From: Candidatus Poribacteria bacterium
Lineage (GTDB): Bacteria > Poribacteria > WGA-4E > WGA-3G
Direction: 5' to 3'
Assembly: GCA_003635185.1 (NCBI GenBank)
Contig: PYJA01000032.1
Location: 32,754 to 96,753 of the forward strand
DNA length: 64,000 nt
Under the pieces are notes generated by a model. That model ran no database searches. It saw nothing but the letters and a program-made list of their open reading frames with translations, and was not told the DNA's origin. This document shows positions 2,258 through 21,111 of the stretch, piece by piece; the stretch's first letter is position 1; every line of letters starts with the position of its first letter. The translations under genes were made by a program, and so were the position numbers.

Positions 2258-4831
2258 ATGGACCAAATGAACCACTCCTTAATCTACCGTATTGGTGCTT
2301 CGCTCGTACTTGCCATACTTTTGTTTATAACTTTTTGGATTCGGGTCCAAGGCACAAAAGATATTCCAGATAAAGACGTAAAACGTATTCCAGAAGGACA
2401 GTTTACCGCAAACGATGCCTATCTCTACTATTGGCATGCACAAAGAATCGCTGAACTCGGATATCTTCCTGCTATTGACGAACACCGCTGGCTGCCTCAA
2501 GGTAGAGACGTAAGTCAGACACTCCCTTTTTATTCTTATGTTCTTGCTCGGACGCACCAAATAATAGAGATGTTCTTTTATAAGGTCTCCCTCTACCATG
2601 TCCAACTTTACGCACCTGCTATATTTTTCACGCTTGGACTTGGAATCTTAGCACTCTTTCTCACCCGTACAGCCGGATTTCTCTTTGCCTTCATTGTCAC
2701 CGTGCTTTTAGCAACGTTGCCGGGATGTGTAGATAGGAGCGCCGCAGGCTTCAGTGATAGGGACGCATGGTGTTGGTTGTTAGGCACTCTCGCTGTGGTC
2801 TCTTACCTATGGAAAGAGCAGATACCGTTAAACCCCCTTGTCAAGGGGGGCGAGGGGGATTCCGTTCCTGACAAGGAGGACAGAGGAGGTTCCATTCCTG
2901 CCAACCCCTCTGACAAGGGGGGCAAGGAGGGTTCCATTCTTGCCAAAGCGAAAAGGATTATTGAAAATTGGCGCAGGTACATCGCAACCCTCCTTTCCGG
3001 GTTCATCGTTTTCTTGGGTGGACTCTCATGGGAAGGGTTTGGCGTATTCCTGTTGGTCATCCTCTGGACGGAGCTTTGGAAGTTCTGCACGACAGACACC
3101 GAACAGCATCTGCTTGAATACGTAATATGGGTCACAATGTTCGTGCCATGGCTTTATCTCGCGTCCCCTGTATACCGGCACGGGCAGTTTTTCGCTGCAC
3201 ATCTCACTGCCCTTGTGTTGATTCCACCGCTTGCCGTGCTTGCACTCCGGGGGCTGAGGTGCCTTCTGCTCCATTTCTTTAAACCGCTCCGAACCCATGC
3301 CCGAAAAATAGCAGGACTCCTAACACTTCTTGCGATTGTGGGCGCGGGATGCTATGTTTTTTCCCAAGTTGATACCTTCGCAAGGACCACGGTCCCGTTT
3401 AGTGAAAACCGATTGATGCAGCAAACAACCGAACTGGACAACCCAAGTTTTCTATATTGGGTGTCTCGGTACGGCGGCGTGTTTGTTTTGGGCAGCATCG
3501 GTTTGATAGGGATGTGTTTCCACATGTGGAAATGGGAAGGGATTCCTTTAGCATCCGCCCTTTTTCTCTTTGCACTCACGGTATTCTTTCGAGGTCCTCT
3601 CATTGGATTAATAGGAGCCTCTCTATGCAATGTGTTGTTTTTTGCTGCGTTAGGTCTCACCATTATCGGCATCGGATTCGCCTGCCTCCGAAAAGAGGCT
3701 TTGCAAAATGAAGCTGCCTTTATCGCAACTACAGTATGGTTTCTCTTATGGGTAGGATTGTCAAAAAGTGCGGTCCGTTATGACTTCTTTATCGGAATCC
3801 CATTGGCAATCGGTACAGCAGTTATTTTGGTCCGTTCACCCACGTCCGGAAAACCTGTCCATCTCAGTGGTAGAACCTTGCACCCCAAATTAGTAACAGC
3901 GGCGTTTGCAATCGGCATGCTGGTACTCCTTCTGTTTTGGACACCTGCTGGTGGCTATGCCAATAGCGTGATCCGAGCTGCCAGCGAACGTCCACCGATA
4001 CCTGGATATAGCAGTTTGGCACAAGCATACACTTGGATGAAAACTGAACTGCCCGAAGGGACAACCGTCATGGCAGCAAACTGGGGATACGGCAGCCAAC
4101 TTAACGTCCTCGGTGGCGTTAAAACCATTGTTGACCAAGATCATTTTATTCAGCATTGGATATATCTCTACTACCGACACGTTTACTGCGCGCAATCCGA
4201 GCAGGAAGCATTAGCATTCCTAAAAACACACCACGCAACACATCTGATGATAACAGCTTCGGACCTAACCATCAACGCAGGCGGAATTTCTTATGTCGGT
4301 AGCGATACAGAATTTGATAGGCACTTTGATCTTCACGCGCTTAAGTTGTTACCAACTGCACCTGGAACGCAATATTCCCTTGCACCGATAAAATATCCAC
4401 GTCCAGTACGTTTTATGCCACAAACCGATTTAAAGACCATAGACATTCGCGGCACAGAAATAGAAAACTTATCCGTAACAGCACAGTTCAAAACAGGTAG
4501 GACATCACACATCCCTTATGTCGCTTATGTCGGCAGCCAGAGAATCACACAAAAAGAAAAAACGGACACAGAAAACGGAGGCGTTGTGCTCATCTTCAAC
4601 ACACAAAAGAAACTTCTTTACAGTTATTATCTCCCCGCCATCGGGTGGAACAGTCTTGCAGTCAAATTGTTCATTCGCGGCGAACGGACAGAGACTTTTA
4701 AAAATGTTTATACTGCCACGCCAGAGGGAATAGATATACCACCAGAAATCAAAATATGGAAAATCAACTATCCATCTGACATCAAAAAGAATCCGAAATA
4801 CCTTGAAACAGAACCATCCGAAGGATATTGA
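2258..4831 (+). CDS. STT3-family oligosaccharyltransferase
   Basis: A polytopic membrane protein with roughly a dozen hydrophobic helices in its first 560 residues and a soluble C-terminal domain, as in STT3/PglB/AglB, which move lipid-linked glycans to Asn. Motifs seen: an N-terminal acidic loop NDAYLYYWHAQRIAE with GYLP and LPQGRDV, a second loop AGFSDRDAW in the place of the SVAGSxDNE region, and ANWGYGSQL at about residue 607 in the place of the family WWDYG motif. The NWGYG form lacks the Asp of WWDYG, which is unusual. Residues about 192-230 are encoded by an inserted repeat (2831-2946). Length 857 is normal to long. Start at 2258; ATG 2267 is an alternative. STT3 is rare in bacteria. 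Confidence 0.85.
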   Translation: MDQMNHSLIYRIGASLVLAILLFITFWIRVQGTKDIPDKDVKRIPEGQFTANDAYLYYWHAQRIAELGYLPAIDEHRWLPQGRDVSQTLPFYSYVLARTHQIIEMFFYKVSLYHVQLYAPAIFFTLGLGILALFLTRTAGFLFAFIVTVLLATLPGCVDRSAAGFSDRDAWCWLLGTLAVVSYLWKEQIPLNPLVKGGEGDSVPDKEDRGGSIPANPSDKGGKEGSILAKAKRIIENWRRYIATLLSGFIVFLGGLSWEGFGVFLLVILWTELWKFCTTDTEQHLLEYVIWVTMFVPWLYLASPVYRHGQFFAAHLTALVLIPPLAVLALRGLRCLLLHFFKPLRTHARKIAGLLTLLAIVGAGCYVFSQVDTFARTTVPFSENRLMQQTTELDNPSFLYWVSRYGGVFVLGSIGLIGMCFHMWKWEGIPLASALFLFALTVFFRGPLIGLIGASLCNVLFFAALGLTIIGIGFACLRKEALQNEAAFIATTVWFLLWVGLSKSAVRYDFFIGIPLAIGTAVILVRSPTSGKPVHLSGRTLHPKLVTAAFAIGMLVLLLFWTPAGGYANSVIRAASERPPIPGYSSLAQAYTWMKTELPEGTTVMAANWGYGSQLNVLGGVKTIVDQDHFIQHWIYLYYRHVYCAQSEQEALAFLKTHHATHLMITASDLTINAGGISYVGSDTEFDRHFDLHALKLLPTAPGTQYSLAPIKYPRPVRFMPQTDLKTIDIRGTEIENLSVTAQFKTGRTSHIPYVAYVGSQRITQKEKTDTENGGVVLIFNTQKKLLYSYYLPAIGWNSLAVKLFIRGERTETFKNVYTATPEGIDIPPEIKIWKINYPSDIKKNPKYLETEPSEGY
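2831..2946 (+). repeat. In-frame repeat insertion inside STT3
   Basis: G/C-rich tandem sequence with a core like CCCCCTTGTCAAGGGGGG, closely similar to the arms of the family D elements at 36311 and 38225, followed by three variants of TTCCATTCCTGCC. It encodes a Gly/Asp/Lys-rich stretch (VKGGEGDS, DKGGKEGS) between hydrophobic segments of STT3 and keeps the frame open. Confidence 0.75.
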
Positions 4832-16505: not shown

Positions 16506-17072
16506 CTATTCAAAAAGTTCTGCCACCTGACAAGAAAATCCTTCGACAACCTCTTCTCCGCTGAGTGTATCGTTCCGTGTGAGGGTTGTGATTTCCGTTT
16601 CCGAACGATAGACAGTTACCGTTTTGGATTGAGGTTTAAGCACCCACACTAACTGCGTTCCTGCTTCAAGGTAAGCGAAAGCTTTTTCTTCAACTCTGGA
16701 TGATGCATCTGTCGGGGAGACTACTTCAACGGCAAGGTCTGGCGGAACTGGGCATGCTTTGCTTAGACTATCGGGCATATTGGCATTTGAAAGAAAGGCA
16801 ACATCTGGCATTAGAACACGATCCCCAACAGTGAATCCTACATCCATATAGATGTCCCCTAATAGGTTTTTACGAATGTAAAAACCTAAAGGTAAAAACA
16901 GGTTCGTACTTATCCTACCATGTAGCATTGATGGAGGTGGCATCGGTACTAATTCTCCTTTTATATATTCATATCCCTCTAAATCGCTTTCCAGGAATTC
17001 CTCCAAAGTCATCTTTGGAATATCTGGTAGTAGACTATCGGGAGAGATATGTTGGACTTCTTGAGCATTCAT
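16506..17072 (-). CDS. Uma2 family (DUF820) endonuclease-like protein, copy 2
   Basis: 188 residues with the same architecture: VLMPDVAFLS, DLAVEVVSPTDA, VEEKAFAYLEAGTQLVWVL. It differs most from its neighbours in the 50-100 region (LPLGFYIRKNLLGD). The intergenic sequence before it, including the start region and about 110 bases upstream, is almost identical to that before copy 3, which shows that the duplicated unit included the regulatory sequence. Probably the same function with changed specificity. Confidence 0.85.
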   Translation of the reverse strand: MNAQEVQHISPDSLLPDIPKMTLEEFLESDLEGYEYIKGELVPMPPPSMLHGRISTNLFLPLGFYIRKNLLGDIYMDVGFTVGDRVLMPDVAFLSNANMPDSLSKACPVPPDLAVEVVSPTDASSRVEEKAFAYLEAGTQLVWVLKPQSKTVTVYRSETEITTLTRNDTLSGEEVVEGFSCQVAELFE

Positions 17073-17181: not shown

Positions 17182-17748
17182 CTATTCAAAAAGTTGTGTT
17201 ACCTGACAAGAAAACCCTTCGACAACCTCTTCACCGCTGAGCGTGTCATTTCGTGTAAGGATTGTGATTTCCGTTTCCGAACGATAGACGGTTACCGTTT
17301 TGGCTCGTGGTGCAAGCACCCATACCAACTGTGTGCCCGCCTCAAGGTAAGCAAACACCTTTTCTTGAATTCGGTGTAAAGTGTCTGAAGGAGAGGCAAC
17401 TTCAGCAGTAAGGTTTGGTGGAACTGGGGACGCTTTACTCGGATCAATTGGGATGCGATCTGTTGAAATAAATGCAATATCTGGTATCAACACGCGTTCA
17501 CCAACCCGGAAGCCTGTTTCTGAAAGAACACGTCCCAGTTGATTTTCACGAACGTACAAGTGTAGCAACGAACTTAGGTTCACACTAATGTAACCGTGTT
17601 CCACTGAAGTAGGTGGCATAGGGACTAATTCTCCTTTTATATATTCATATCCCTCTAAATCGCTTTCCAGGAATTCCTCCAAAGTCATCTTAGGAAGCTC
17701 AGGCGGAAGGTTCTCAGGCAAGAATTGACGAACTTCTTGTGCATCCAC
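17182..17748 (-). CDS. Uma2 family (DUF820) endonuclease-like protein, copy 1
   Basis: 188 residues; VLIPDIAFIS, NLTAEVASPSDT, IQEKVFAYLEAGTQLVWVL. In the Glu-containing motif AEVA replaces VEVV of the other copies, keeping the Glu. First gene of the tandem set on the minus strand, after the ppdK gene and its strong stem-loop; the start has GGAGGAGAAACAG upstream. All three keep the catalytic-type residues. Confidence 0.85.
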   Translation of the reverse strand: MDAQEVRQFLPENLPPELPKMTLEEFLESDLEGYEYIKGELVPMPPTSVEHGYISVNLSSLLHLYVRENQLGRVLSETGFRVGERVLIPDIAFISTDRIPIDPSKASPVPPNLTAEVASPSDTLHRIQEKVFAYLEAGTQLVWVLAPRAKTVTVYRSETEITILTRNDTLSGEEVVEGFSCQVTQLFE

Positions 17749-17924: not shown

Positions 17925-20558
17925 CTATGCCTTATCTTCAATGACAGCTTGCGCTGCCGCAAGACGTGCAATCGGCACTCGGAACGGAGAACAAGAAACG
18001 TAATCAAACCCTAATCCGTAACAAAACTTCACAGAATTCGGTTCGCCGCCGTGCTCACCGCAGATGCCGACTTTCAGGTCAGGACGTGCAGAACGTCCTT
18101 TTTCACAGCCGATCTGCAATAGGCTACCGACACCTTCTTGGTCAAGCACTTGGAACGGATCGTATTCGAGAACGCCGTTTCTAACATAGTCGTCAAGGAA
18201 TTTCACAGCATCATCCCGACTCATGCCGAATGTTGTTTGGGTGAGATCGTTTGTCCCATAAGAGAAAAATTCTGCTTCTGCGGCGATTTTATCAGCAGTA
18301 AGCGCTGCGCGGGGCAGCTCAATCATTGTGCCAACAAGATATTCAACGCGAGTCCCTGTTTCTTTAAAAACTTCCTCTGCTGTCTCTACAACAACTTTGC
18401 GCTGCAATGAGAGTTCATTGATATGTCCAACAAGCGGGATCATAATCTCAGGTAAAACCTTGATACCGCGTTTTGTAACATCAGCAGCAGCTTCAAAGAT
18501 GGCACGCGCCTGCATCTCCGTTATCTCCGGATAAACGATACCAAGCCTACATCCACGATGTCCAAGCATTGGGTTAAATTCGTGTAATTCCTCAACGCGC
18601 TCACGGAGTTTTTGCGGGTCAACGTTGATTCTTTCGGCAAGATCAGTGATTTCAGACTCATTTTTCGGCAGGAATTCGTGCAGAGGCGGATCAAGGGTGC
18701 GGATAGTAACCGGATATCCCGCCATCGCCTCAAAAATGCCGATGAAATCTGTGCGTTGGTGTGAAAGCAACTTCGCCAATGCCTGTTTCCGTTCTAACGT
18801 TTCATCTGCAAGGATCATCTCTCGGACAGCGTCAATCCCTGTCCCGAAGAACATGTGCTCAGTCCGACACAGACCGATACCTTCTGCGCCAAATCCTCTT
18901 GCGTTTTTAGCATCTTCGGGCGTATCCGCGTTGGTACGAACGTCAAGTGTGCGCACCTCATCCGCCCATTCCATAAGCGTTCCGAATTGTCCGCTGAGTT
19001 CTGGTTGGATAAGTGAAACTTGCCCGTTTAGCACATCACCTGTGGAGCCGTTGAGTGTGATGTAATCGCCTTCAGCGTAACGTTTGCCACCAGCATAGAA
19101 TTCCAATGCTTCTTCATTGATAAACAGATTCGAACACCCGGCAACACAGCTTTTTCCCATACCGCGTGCAACAACAGCAGCGTGGCTTGTCATGCCACCA
19201 CGCGCAGTGAGAATACCTTCCGCCGCGTCCATTCCACCAATATCTTCTGGGGATGTTTCCGTTCGGACAAGAATAACTTTCTCACCTCCAGCTGCCAGTT
19301 CCTCAGCGCGTAGTGCCGTGAAGACAACCTTACCGACAGCGGCCCCAGGTGAAGCTGGCAAACCTTGTGTGATGACTTCAACAGAAGCATCTGGGTCTAC
19401 ACTCGGATGCAACAATTGGTCAAGATCATTGGCAGGGACACGCGTCAAAGCGGTCTGTTTATCAATCAAACCTTCCTCAACCATCTCTACAGCAATTCGC
19501 ACAGCAGCTTGCCCCGTGCGTTTTCCATTACGTGTTTGGAGCATATAGAGCTTACTATCCTGAATTGTGAACTCTACATCCTGCATATCACTGTAATGCT
19601 TTTCAAGCCGCAATCCGATGTCAACTAATTCGTTATACGCATCGGGCAAAATGTTTCTCAATTCGGCGACAGGAAGAGGCGTGCGAATACCGGCGACCAC
19701 GTCTTCGCCCTGCGCGTTAATGAGGAACTCACCGTAAAATTGGTTTGCACCGGTCGAAGGGTTACGGGTGAAGGCGACTCCTGATCCGGAGGTTCCCCCC
19801 ATATTTCCGAACACCATGGCTTGCACGTTAACAGCCGTGCGCCCGAGTTCTTCAGAAATATCGTTGAGACGACGATAGGTAATTGCACGTTGATTGCCAG
19901 AAGATTCAAACACAGCGTCGCGAGCCATGTCTAACTGGCGGCGAGGTTCATCAGGAAAATCGTTTCCTGTGTGCTGTTTCACGGCGTTCTTGAATTCATC
20001 AACAAGTGCGGCTAAATCGTCTGCTTCTAACTCGGTATCTAATGTAACGCCTTTCGCCTTTTTCTTCTCTTCAAGTAAATGCTCGAATTCATCGTGATCG
20101 ACATCAAGTACAACGTTTCCGAACATTTGGACGAAGCGTCGATATGAATCGTAAGCGAAACGTTCATTTTCAGATTTGGTAATGAGTCCCTTCACAGCGT
20201 CATCATTTAAACCGAGATTCAGAATCGTATCCATCATTCCCGGCATAGAAACCGCCGCACCTGAGCGAACAGAGAGCAGGAGTGGGTTTTCGGTATCACC
20301 GAATTTTGCGTCCAACGCATCTTCTAACTTCTCAAGGTTCTCGGTAATCTGTTGGTCAAGACCGCTGGGGTACTTTTTATCGTTATCGTAGTAAAATTTG
20401 CATACTTCAGTGGAAATCGTGAAGCCTGGGGGTACTGGCACGCCGAGATTGGTCATCTCTGCAAGATTTGCGCCTTTACCACCAAGTAGCGTGCGCATCG
20501 TTGCGTCGCCTTCGCCTTCACCGGCTCCAAAGAAGTAAACATACTTCGGTTGTGTCAT
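17925..20558 (-). CDS. ppdK: Pyruvate, phosphate dikinase
   Basis: 877 residues, the usual length. Interconverts pyruvate, ATP and phosphate with PEP, AMP and pyrophosphate. N-terminal ATP-grasp domain (GGKGANLAEMTNLGVPVPPGF, RSGAAVSMPGMMDT, GNMGGTSGSGVAFTR), central phosphohistidine domain (GGMTSHAAVVARGMGKS with catalytic His), C-terminal PEP/pyruvate barrel (GAEGIGLCRTEHMFF, HRGCRLGI, GICGEHGG with the catalytic Cys). Start at 20558 is chosen over 20573 because AGGAG lies 7 bases before it and would otherwise be inside the coding region. Single gene, with a stem-loop downstream. Confidence 0.95.
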   Translation of the reverse strand: MTQPKYVYFFGAGEGEGDATMRTLLGGKGANLAEMTNLGVPVPPGFTISTEVCKFYYDNDKKYPSGLDQQITENLEKLEDALDAKFGDTENPLLLSVRSGAAVSMPGMMDTILNLGLNDDAVKGLITKSENERFAYDSYRRFVQMFGNVVLDVDHDEFEHLLEEKKKAKGVTLDTELEADDLAALVDEFKNAVKQHTGNDFPDEPRRQLDMARDAVFESSGNQRAITYRRLNDISEELGRTAVNVQAMVFGNMGGTSGSGVAFTRNPSTGANQFYGEFLINAQGEDVVAGIRTPLPVAELRNILPDAYNELVDIGLRLEKHYSDMQDVEFTIQDSKLYMLQTRNGKRTGQAAVRIAVEMVEEGLIDKQTALTRVPANDLDQLLHPSVDPDASVEVITQGLPASPGAAVGKVVFTALRAEELAAGGEKVILVRTETSPEDIGGMDAAEGILTARGGMTSHAAVVARGMGKSCVAGCSNLFINEEALEFYAGGKRYAEGDYITLNGSTGDVLNGQVSLIQPELSGQFGTLMEWADEVRTLDVRTNADTPEDAKNARGFGAEGIGLCRTEHMFFGTGIDAVREMILADETLERKQALAKLLSHQRTDFIGIFEAMAGYPVTIRTLDPPLHEFLPKNESEITDLAERINVDPQKLRERVEELHEFNPMLGHRGCRLGIVYPEITEMQARAIFEAAADVTKRGIKVLPEIMIPLVGHINELSLQRKVVVETAEEVFKETGTRVEYLVGTMIELPRAALTADKIAAEAEFFSYGTNDLTQTTFGMSRDDAVKFLDDYVRNGVLEYDPFQVLDQEGVGSLLQIGCEKGRSARPDLKVGICGEHGGEPNSVKFCYGLGFDYVSCSPFRVPIARLAAAQAVIEDKA

Positions 20559-20597: not shown

Positions 20598-21040
20598 GTG
20601 ATGCCACCCACTACCTAAAAGTAGGGGCTTCGGTTTCTTCGCAATTGCACTGTTTCCGAAGAAACAAGTGTCGGACATTCGCTCCACCAGTAAACCGTTA
20701 TTCCGAATCAGATCGGTTTTATCAGGTATTCAACCCTGCGCACCCGGGCCTAAATAATAAGTTTGGGGTGGCGATACAAAGCACAGGATTATTACTTCTC
20801 TGACGACTTACATGAACGCCACCAATAATAATGATGGACAAGGTCTCACTTGCAACTCGCCACATACCATGCTACTGGTAAGGATAGTACTCTATCAGAG
20901 ATTGATAGAGGTAGCATTACTATCCAGCAAGTTGCAAATAGGATACCACATATCTTCAATAAAGTCAAGTTTTTTTGATAAATAAACCGCTTAGCCGTGG
21001 ACATCCCGCAAGCTGAAGCATGGGGATTTGACGGAAGGTG
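20598..21040. mobile_element. IS200/IS605-like non-autonomous element or remnant
   Basis: No protein-coding gene. At one end CCCACTACCTAAAAGTAGGGG (20607-20626 region) is an imperfect hairpin followed by GCTTCGGTTTCTTC, which pairs with GAAGAAAC (20633-20640 with 20658-20665). At the other end (20990-21033) ATCCC ... GGGAT arms enclose GCAAGCTGAAGCAT, a pattern like the subterminal hairpins of IS200/IS605 elements. The interior contains the pseudoknotted fold listed separately. Neither tnpA nor tnpB is present, so if it belongs to that family it is a palindrome-associated derivative. Orientation and exact ends are uncertain. Confidence 0.35.
20850..20937. ncRNA. Candidate structured RNA with pseudoknot
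   Basis: Nested exact pairings: outer stem TTGCAACT (20850-20857) with AGTTGCAA (20930-20937); hairpin TACCA/TGGTA (20865-20880) with loop TGCTAC; stem GGATAGTA (20882-20889) with TACTATCC (20918-20925); directly stacked stem CTCTATC (20890-20896) with GATAGAG (20904-20910). The 7-base bulge GTAGCAT (20911-20917) is the exact complement of the hairpin loop TGCTAC, making a 6-pair pseudoknot. The fold is equally possible on both strands; strand and family are unknown. Confidence 0.5.
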
Positions 21041-21111
21041 TTAAAAGGAAAAATATATACAAGAAATGGTATAAGAAGGGATTCCCGCTTATTGAAATGT
21101 TGCAGCGATAC

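Follow-up and report, generated by a model that had tools for sequence, protein, structure and literature searches.

A 64,000-nt stretch of a Candidatus Poribacteria contig (hereafter "the window") carries, on its minus strand between a WD40 gene and ppdK, an RNA fold found in at least 158 copies in Poribacteria and, as far as sequence comparison can tell, representing a new family of leader RNAs. The fold is genuine and lies well outside what chance pairing would give. We consider it probable that it is a conserved, pseudoknotted 5′ leader acting in cis, and that the window copy is left over from a tnpB element, with the element's promoter directed towards ppdK. The relevant features of the window are:

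20598–21045, minus strand: non-coding unit of 448 nt with TnpB/IS605-type ends (5′ end 21045, 3′ end 20598), matching tnpB elements of the same genome; full-length relatives occur in other genomes
20995–21034, minus strand: left-end imperfect hairpin CCGTC...CACGG; identical sequence precedes the tnpB start in L031 and L032
20940–20968, minus strand: promoter with −35 box TTGACT (20968–20963), 17-nt spacer and −10 box TATCCT (20945–20940); score 9/12, place conserved across copies
20850–20937, minus strand: pseudoknotted leader RNA domain, with covariation in 12 and in 80 copies
20927–20937, minus strand: P1 5′ strand (80-copy alignment)
20850–20860, minus strand: P1 3′ strand (80-copy alignment)
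20918–20925, minus strand: P2 5′ strand, GGATAGTA (80-copy alignment)
20882–20889, minus strand: P2 3′ strand, TACTATCC (80-copy alignment)
20911–20917, minus strand: pseudoknot 5′ strand, ATGCTAC (pairing figures below)
20869–20875, minus strand: pseudoknot 3′ strand, GTAGCAT, in the P4 loop (80-copy alignment)
20890–20910, minus strand: P3 hairpin, CTCTATCA-ATCTC-TGATAGAG, 8/8 pairs compensated
20865–20880, minus strand: P4 hairpin, TACCA-GTAGCA-TGGTA (80-copy alignment)
20839–20852, minus strand: possible P5 hairpin after P1, CAAG-TGAGAC-CTTG, seen by eye in many copies
20703–20823, minus strand: middle domain, common to full-length relatives; pieces also stand alone elsewhere
20598–20687, minus strand: TnpB-element right end resembling omega-RNA, with 85% identity to the L031 stretch directly 3′ of the tnpB stop; its terminal hairpin reads CCCCTAC-TTTTAG-GTAGTGGG
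17925–20558, minus strand: ppdK (Pfam PPDK_N and PEP-utilisers), with a ribosome site GAGGAG at ~20571; the unit points at this gene

Read on the minus strand, the domain at 20850–20937 has the topology P1[P2[PK-P3]P4(PK)], comprising P1 (TTGCAACTTGC/GCGAGTTGCAA), P2 (GGATAGTA/TACTATCC), P3 (CTCTATCA/TGATAGAG) and P4 (TACCA/TGGTA), and the P4 loop GTAGCAT pairs with the 7-nt strand ATGCTAC between P2 and P3. The five pairings of the original prediction, including the pseudoknot, are all present in the window sequence, among them its hairpin TACCA-TGCTAC-TGGTA and the bulge GTAGCAT facing the loop TGCTAC. Two stem lengths needed correction: the outer stem TTGCAACT/AGTTGCAA, given as 8 bases, reaches 10–12 pairs on the minus strand, and the stacked stems GGATAGTA/TACTATCC on CTCTATCA/TGATAGAG, given as 8 and 7, have 8 and 8 pairs. 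The strand, previously left unfixed, was chosen on fold energy and on the side at which the promoter lies. With nested pairs only and 200 shuffles per strand, folding energy was −43.0 kcal/mol on the minus strand (z = −5.95) and −35.9 kcal/mol on the plus strand (z = −4.15), and 0/200 shuffles matched either value.

Homologues were abundant in related genomes. A DNA search of genomes of the same family yielded ~20 relatives, a first covariance model detected copies in 41 of 59 family genomes, and a rebuilt model, applied to 85 genomes of the phylum, detected copies in 54, most of them within one family and a few in a second; within the window, the covariance model matched 20845–20940 with 109.5 bits, the window copy being itself part of the model. 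Across 12 aligned copies, 95.6% of pair cells form and 17 pairs are compensated, a level reached by 0/500 shuffles, and across 80 copies 94.6% of pair cells form and 35 of 37 pairs are compensated, against 35–43% for all slid controls. These comparisons settle the claim that the interlocking pairings exceed chance; the covariance search that had been proposed as a check thus supported the fold, and its outcome was the opposite of the uncompensated loss of pairing that had been named as the refutation. Because the 80-copy alignment was fitted to the nested helices and not to the pseudoknot, the pseudoknot count is the cleaner evidence, with 97.9% of its cells paired and 5 of 6 pairs compensated.

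A genome-wide pattern scan gave chance matches in many phyla. Among the matches listed, 80 stretches were scored with the model, which upheld Candidatus Poribacteria records only and confirmed no copy outside Poribacteria; two non-Poribacteria matches of the scan were rejected as chance level (E 0.06 and 0.5). No Rfam 15 family reached its gathering score across the whole window, permissive thresholds applied to the window and four other loci returned chance-level scores only, and tRNA or tmRNA identity was excluded. A literature search of open-licence papers found no earlier report of the leader. One further copy lies on a viral contig (IMGVR_UViG_3300006527_000034; L426, 700–1400, minus strand), where the leader is found inside a TnpB-type mobile unit between the contig's genes.

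A sigma-70-like promoter precedes the fold, with a mean best score of 10.06/12 compared to 7.94 in shuffled sequences and a score of 11 or 12 in 62 of 148 copies versus 1 of 740 shuffles. Spacer length is 17 nt in 100 of the 145 copies scoring ≥8, and in most copies no more than ~3 nt separate the end of the −10 box from the model start; the window promoter, TTGACT-17-TATCCT, is among the weaker ones. Transcription would accordingly begin in the P1 5′ strand, which makes the minus strand the RNA strand in the window, and because this conserved promoter ends at the fold, we read the fold as a 5′ leader, located where the transcript's 5′ end is expected. Copies with compensated structure have the promoter before them and, for tnpB-like and host genes, a sense gene after them, while window-type units have no gene. 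These many gene-less copies, along with the published case of a small RNA from the 5′ end of IS200 tnpA (PMC12594629), would be consistent with a separate, processed or terminated small RNA acting in trans. However, no strong terminator is visible by eye right after the fold, and many copies closely precede tnpB or host genes, making a trans-acting product unlikely.

The window copy, just upstream of ppdK, is one of a class of 450–560-nt mobile non-coding derivatives of TnpB/IS605-type elements (class A). A regular expression for the right end assigned 61 of 158 copies to this class, a count that misses some class A copies, including the one in the window. Related units of this size occur at different places in one genome with up to 99.8% identity, and some retain a C-terminal remnant of tnpB (L082). 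Units were also found at the same locus in different species, namely at the HU gene locus in three (L083, L084, L087) and at the pyrR locus in two (L031, L082), so that some of the insertions must be long-standing and retained, or co-inherited. The involvement of a TnpB-type element had been rightly anticipated: the window unit, which reads towards ppdK, shares its ends with tnpB-bearing elements from its own genome, where one lies before the tnpB start and the other directly follows the stop. A role of class A units as promoters for neighbouring genes was considered and rejected, since orientation relative to the nearest gene is random (sense in 24 of 60). In the middle domain, GGTGGCG (20823–20817) pairs with CGCCACC (20773–20767), and GATAAAACCGATCTGATTCGG is conserved at 20723–20703; ~70 nt of this domain stand alone in L039 (2621–2691), directly 5′ of a same-strand protein gene, and single pieces occur in G015, G018 and G019. 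On the other side of the unit's neighbour, two tandem similar 188-aa proteins adjoin ppdK (16506–17072 and 17182–17748, minus strand) and have, by eye, the look of Uma2-type nucleases.

Two of the functions originally suggested for the fold, a transposon end and an omega-type guide RNA scaffold, are not borne out by this arrangement. Instead of forming a subterminal hairpin at a boundary, as expected of an IS200/IS605 end, the fold is internal to a unit bounded at ~21045 and 20598, and many host-gene copies are without such ends. IS200/IS605 elements move as single strands, and with many copies in mobile units the fold might conceivably act in transposition as single-stranded DNA and not as RNA; yet its internal position, the separate terminal hairpins, the host-gene copies without element ends, and the promoter that precedes it in fixed orientation make this hardly credible. 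As for the guide RNA scaffold, the omega-RNA-like terminal domain is a separate feature (20598–20687, fold z −1.81), and the fold, which lies close to the promoter with ~160 nt between it and the right-end domain downstream, is not a right end with a guide directly after it. In class A units a single promoter does serve leader, middle domain and omega-RNA-like end, all on the same strand, and the window's genome has 23 TnpB-domain matches, such that the fold could be the 5′ domain of a long omega-RNA transcript and stabilise the omega-RNA of tnpB-less elements, or deliver it to TnpB made elsewhere in the genome. We judge this quite improbable, as the same leader precedes host genes without an omega-RNA end and intact tnpB elements exist with a different leader or none (L032, L031). 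The tnpB element in L032 (~3960–4300, minus strand) belongs to the window's genome and shares the left end and promoter, but here tnpB is preceded by another large structured leader (z −5.67), in which the hairpin loop CTAATA is complementary to TATTAG further on; this is possibly a second leader family.

The 5′ leader was carried by 4 of 30 tnpB loci chosen by TNB domain only, and four more tnpB-like genes were found among the leader copies. In all eight, the start codon lies 2–10 nt past the model end. Six are TnpB by Pfam (L313, L317, L320, L328, L389 and L417), while L400, a short frame with no Pfam match, and L401, which has masked bases, resemble TnpB only in their N-terminal sequence. 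In L313, L320 and L328, the P1 3′ strand is repeated exactly, over 8 nt, across the start codon (p = 0.002 each), so that P1 could change partner and mask the start. We hypothesize such a partner switch for tnpB, with a strong case in these three loci and a weak one overall; the computed pairing of the start region in tnpB leaders is only partial, in a computation that ignores the pseudoknot.

Host genes make up the other context, with ~34 distinct cases in which the leader lies ~35–330 nt before a sense gene without a recognised right end. Within leader lineages, promoter and fold are near-identical while the genes are unrelated, similarity stops soon past the fold, and the nearest neighbour of a host-gene leader is another host-gene leader in 42 of 46 cases. 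Using PADLOC (E ≤ 1e-5), a defence-related gene was identified in first or second position in 12 of the ~34 contexts: Zorya ZorA followed by an OmpA-domain, ZorB-like gene (L344/L411), a complete CBASS with cyclase and 4TM effector (L383), GmrSD (L404), DNA methyltransferases (L169 and L182), a weakly matching HSDR_N protein (L150), an HNH enzyme (L413), an FRG protein (L402), a PDC-S31 protein (L399), fragments of a CBASS cyclase (L364) and of an AriA-like ATPase (L359), and a PD-Lambda-5-like protein (L398). The remaining scanned host-gene proteins had no defence match. A ParE-like toxin pair (L155 and relatives) was recognised by Pfam and not by PADLOC, and a ThsB-TIR gene (L393) was not counted as leader-linked, because the leader there is not intact and a group II intron-type protein separates it from the gene. 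As a control, genes adjoining class A units had matches in 4 of 40 cases (an ABC ATPase, a receiver domain, a weakly matching PDC-S03 and a single genuine methyltransferase), corresponding to Fisher p = 0.009 for the difference, or p = 0.001 without the two generic matches. For contexts that were grouped by hand, and given that defence islands attract mobile DNA, we regard this enrichment as suggestive.

Several of these loci have additional features. The CBASS operon of L383 (1628–5065, minus strand; cyclase 3e-124, 4TM effector 1.8e-94) is followed by an FRG-domain protein. A protein of ~146 aa lies directly after the leader in four loci (L366, 1806–2243; L369, 2649–3086; L412, 498–1001; L169, 1902–2339), the L169 copy having no Pfam match when scanned; the gene behind it encodes a DNA methyltransferase in L169 and L366 and a Hypoth_Ymh protein in L412. 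The ~146-aa protein is perhaps part of an undescribed defence operon. In L413 (450–3026), the leader precedes an 859-aa protein without Pfam or PADLOC match, and then the HNH nuclease gene.

Taken together, the fold, strand, promoter and gene contexts, all established by sequence comparison, suggest that the RNA probably controls the genes behind it, most likely in cis on translation or mRNA stability; from them we infer both the effect on expression and what recognises the leader. On tnpB transcripts, the closing of P1 would govern ribosome access to the start region directly after it. Since host-gene start codons are usually 35–330 nt away, P1 masking cannot be the sole mechanism, and on these other transcripts the compact 5′ end may set translation or mRNA lifetime, with a protein, the ribosome or an RNase recognising its shape. 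Such a recogniser is likelier than a small ligand because it is helices, not unpaired bases, that are conserved: nearly every core position under strong conservation is base-paired (P2, one A-U pseudoknot pair and the first P3 pairs). Metabolite riboswitches, by comparison, usually conserve unpaired pocket bases. The closest of the original guesses, a riboswitch-like leader, thus holds for the leader, with its conserved promoter and its position before tnpB and many host genes, and not for ligand binding. A compact pseudoknotted leader before coding regions could in principle sense a metabolite, but with no conserved unpaired pocket, no Rfam class match and no common pathway among the downstream genes, we consider this very unlikely.

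More tentatively, the cis-acting leader may place TnpB elements in the same regulon as a set of unrelated anti-phage operons (Zorya, CBASS, GmrSD, restriction-modification), all of them released by one signal acting in trans, perhaps a protein induced by phage or altered translation, although we hold this to be rather doubtful. Known regulators of TnpB nucleases and defence systems are mostly proteins, and the control of these systems is poorly understood. An RNA fold common to TnpB elements and several unrelated defence operons would offer a direct handle on both, and the family would show how a regulatory RNA comes to be common to mobile elements and host genes. Searches for the family can use the covariance model, and every pair lends itself to mutation and rescue.

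Several known RNAs resemble the Poribacteria leader in part. In the pistol ribozyme, a ~6-nt hairpin loop pairs with a strand beside another helix, and this reading was weighed for its topology and set aside, as the order of elements is permuted, the fold lacks an unpaired P3-P2 junction and there is no Rfam match. Type III toxin-antitoxin RNAs (ToxI/CptI) likewise have a pseudoknotted RNA ahead of a defence gene; antitoxins of the ToxI type consist of RNA repeats binding one toxin family (PMC5772629, PMC4627078), whereas the Poribacteria leader is a single larger domain, without tandem repeats, before many unrelated proteins, and no ToxN-like family was found among the scanned downstream proteins. 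The omega-RNA (reRNA) of TnpB is a structured RNA of the same IS605-type elements, and the window unit has an omega-RNA-like end, but omega-RNA occupies the 3′ end, spanning the stop of tnpB and the right end, whereas the Poribacteria fold lies at the 5′ end of the transcript. Finally, the 5′ UTR of IS200 tnpA in Salmonella forms a stem-loop that sequesters the ribosome-binding site and gives rise to a small RNA (PMC12594629). Both are structured 5′ leaders on transcripts of the IS200/IS605 family, a likeness for which we claim no homology: the IS200 leader is a stem-loop on tnpA, while the Poribacteria leader is a pseudoknotted, multi-helix RNA found on tnpB and on unrelated host genes.
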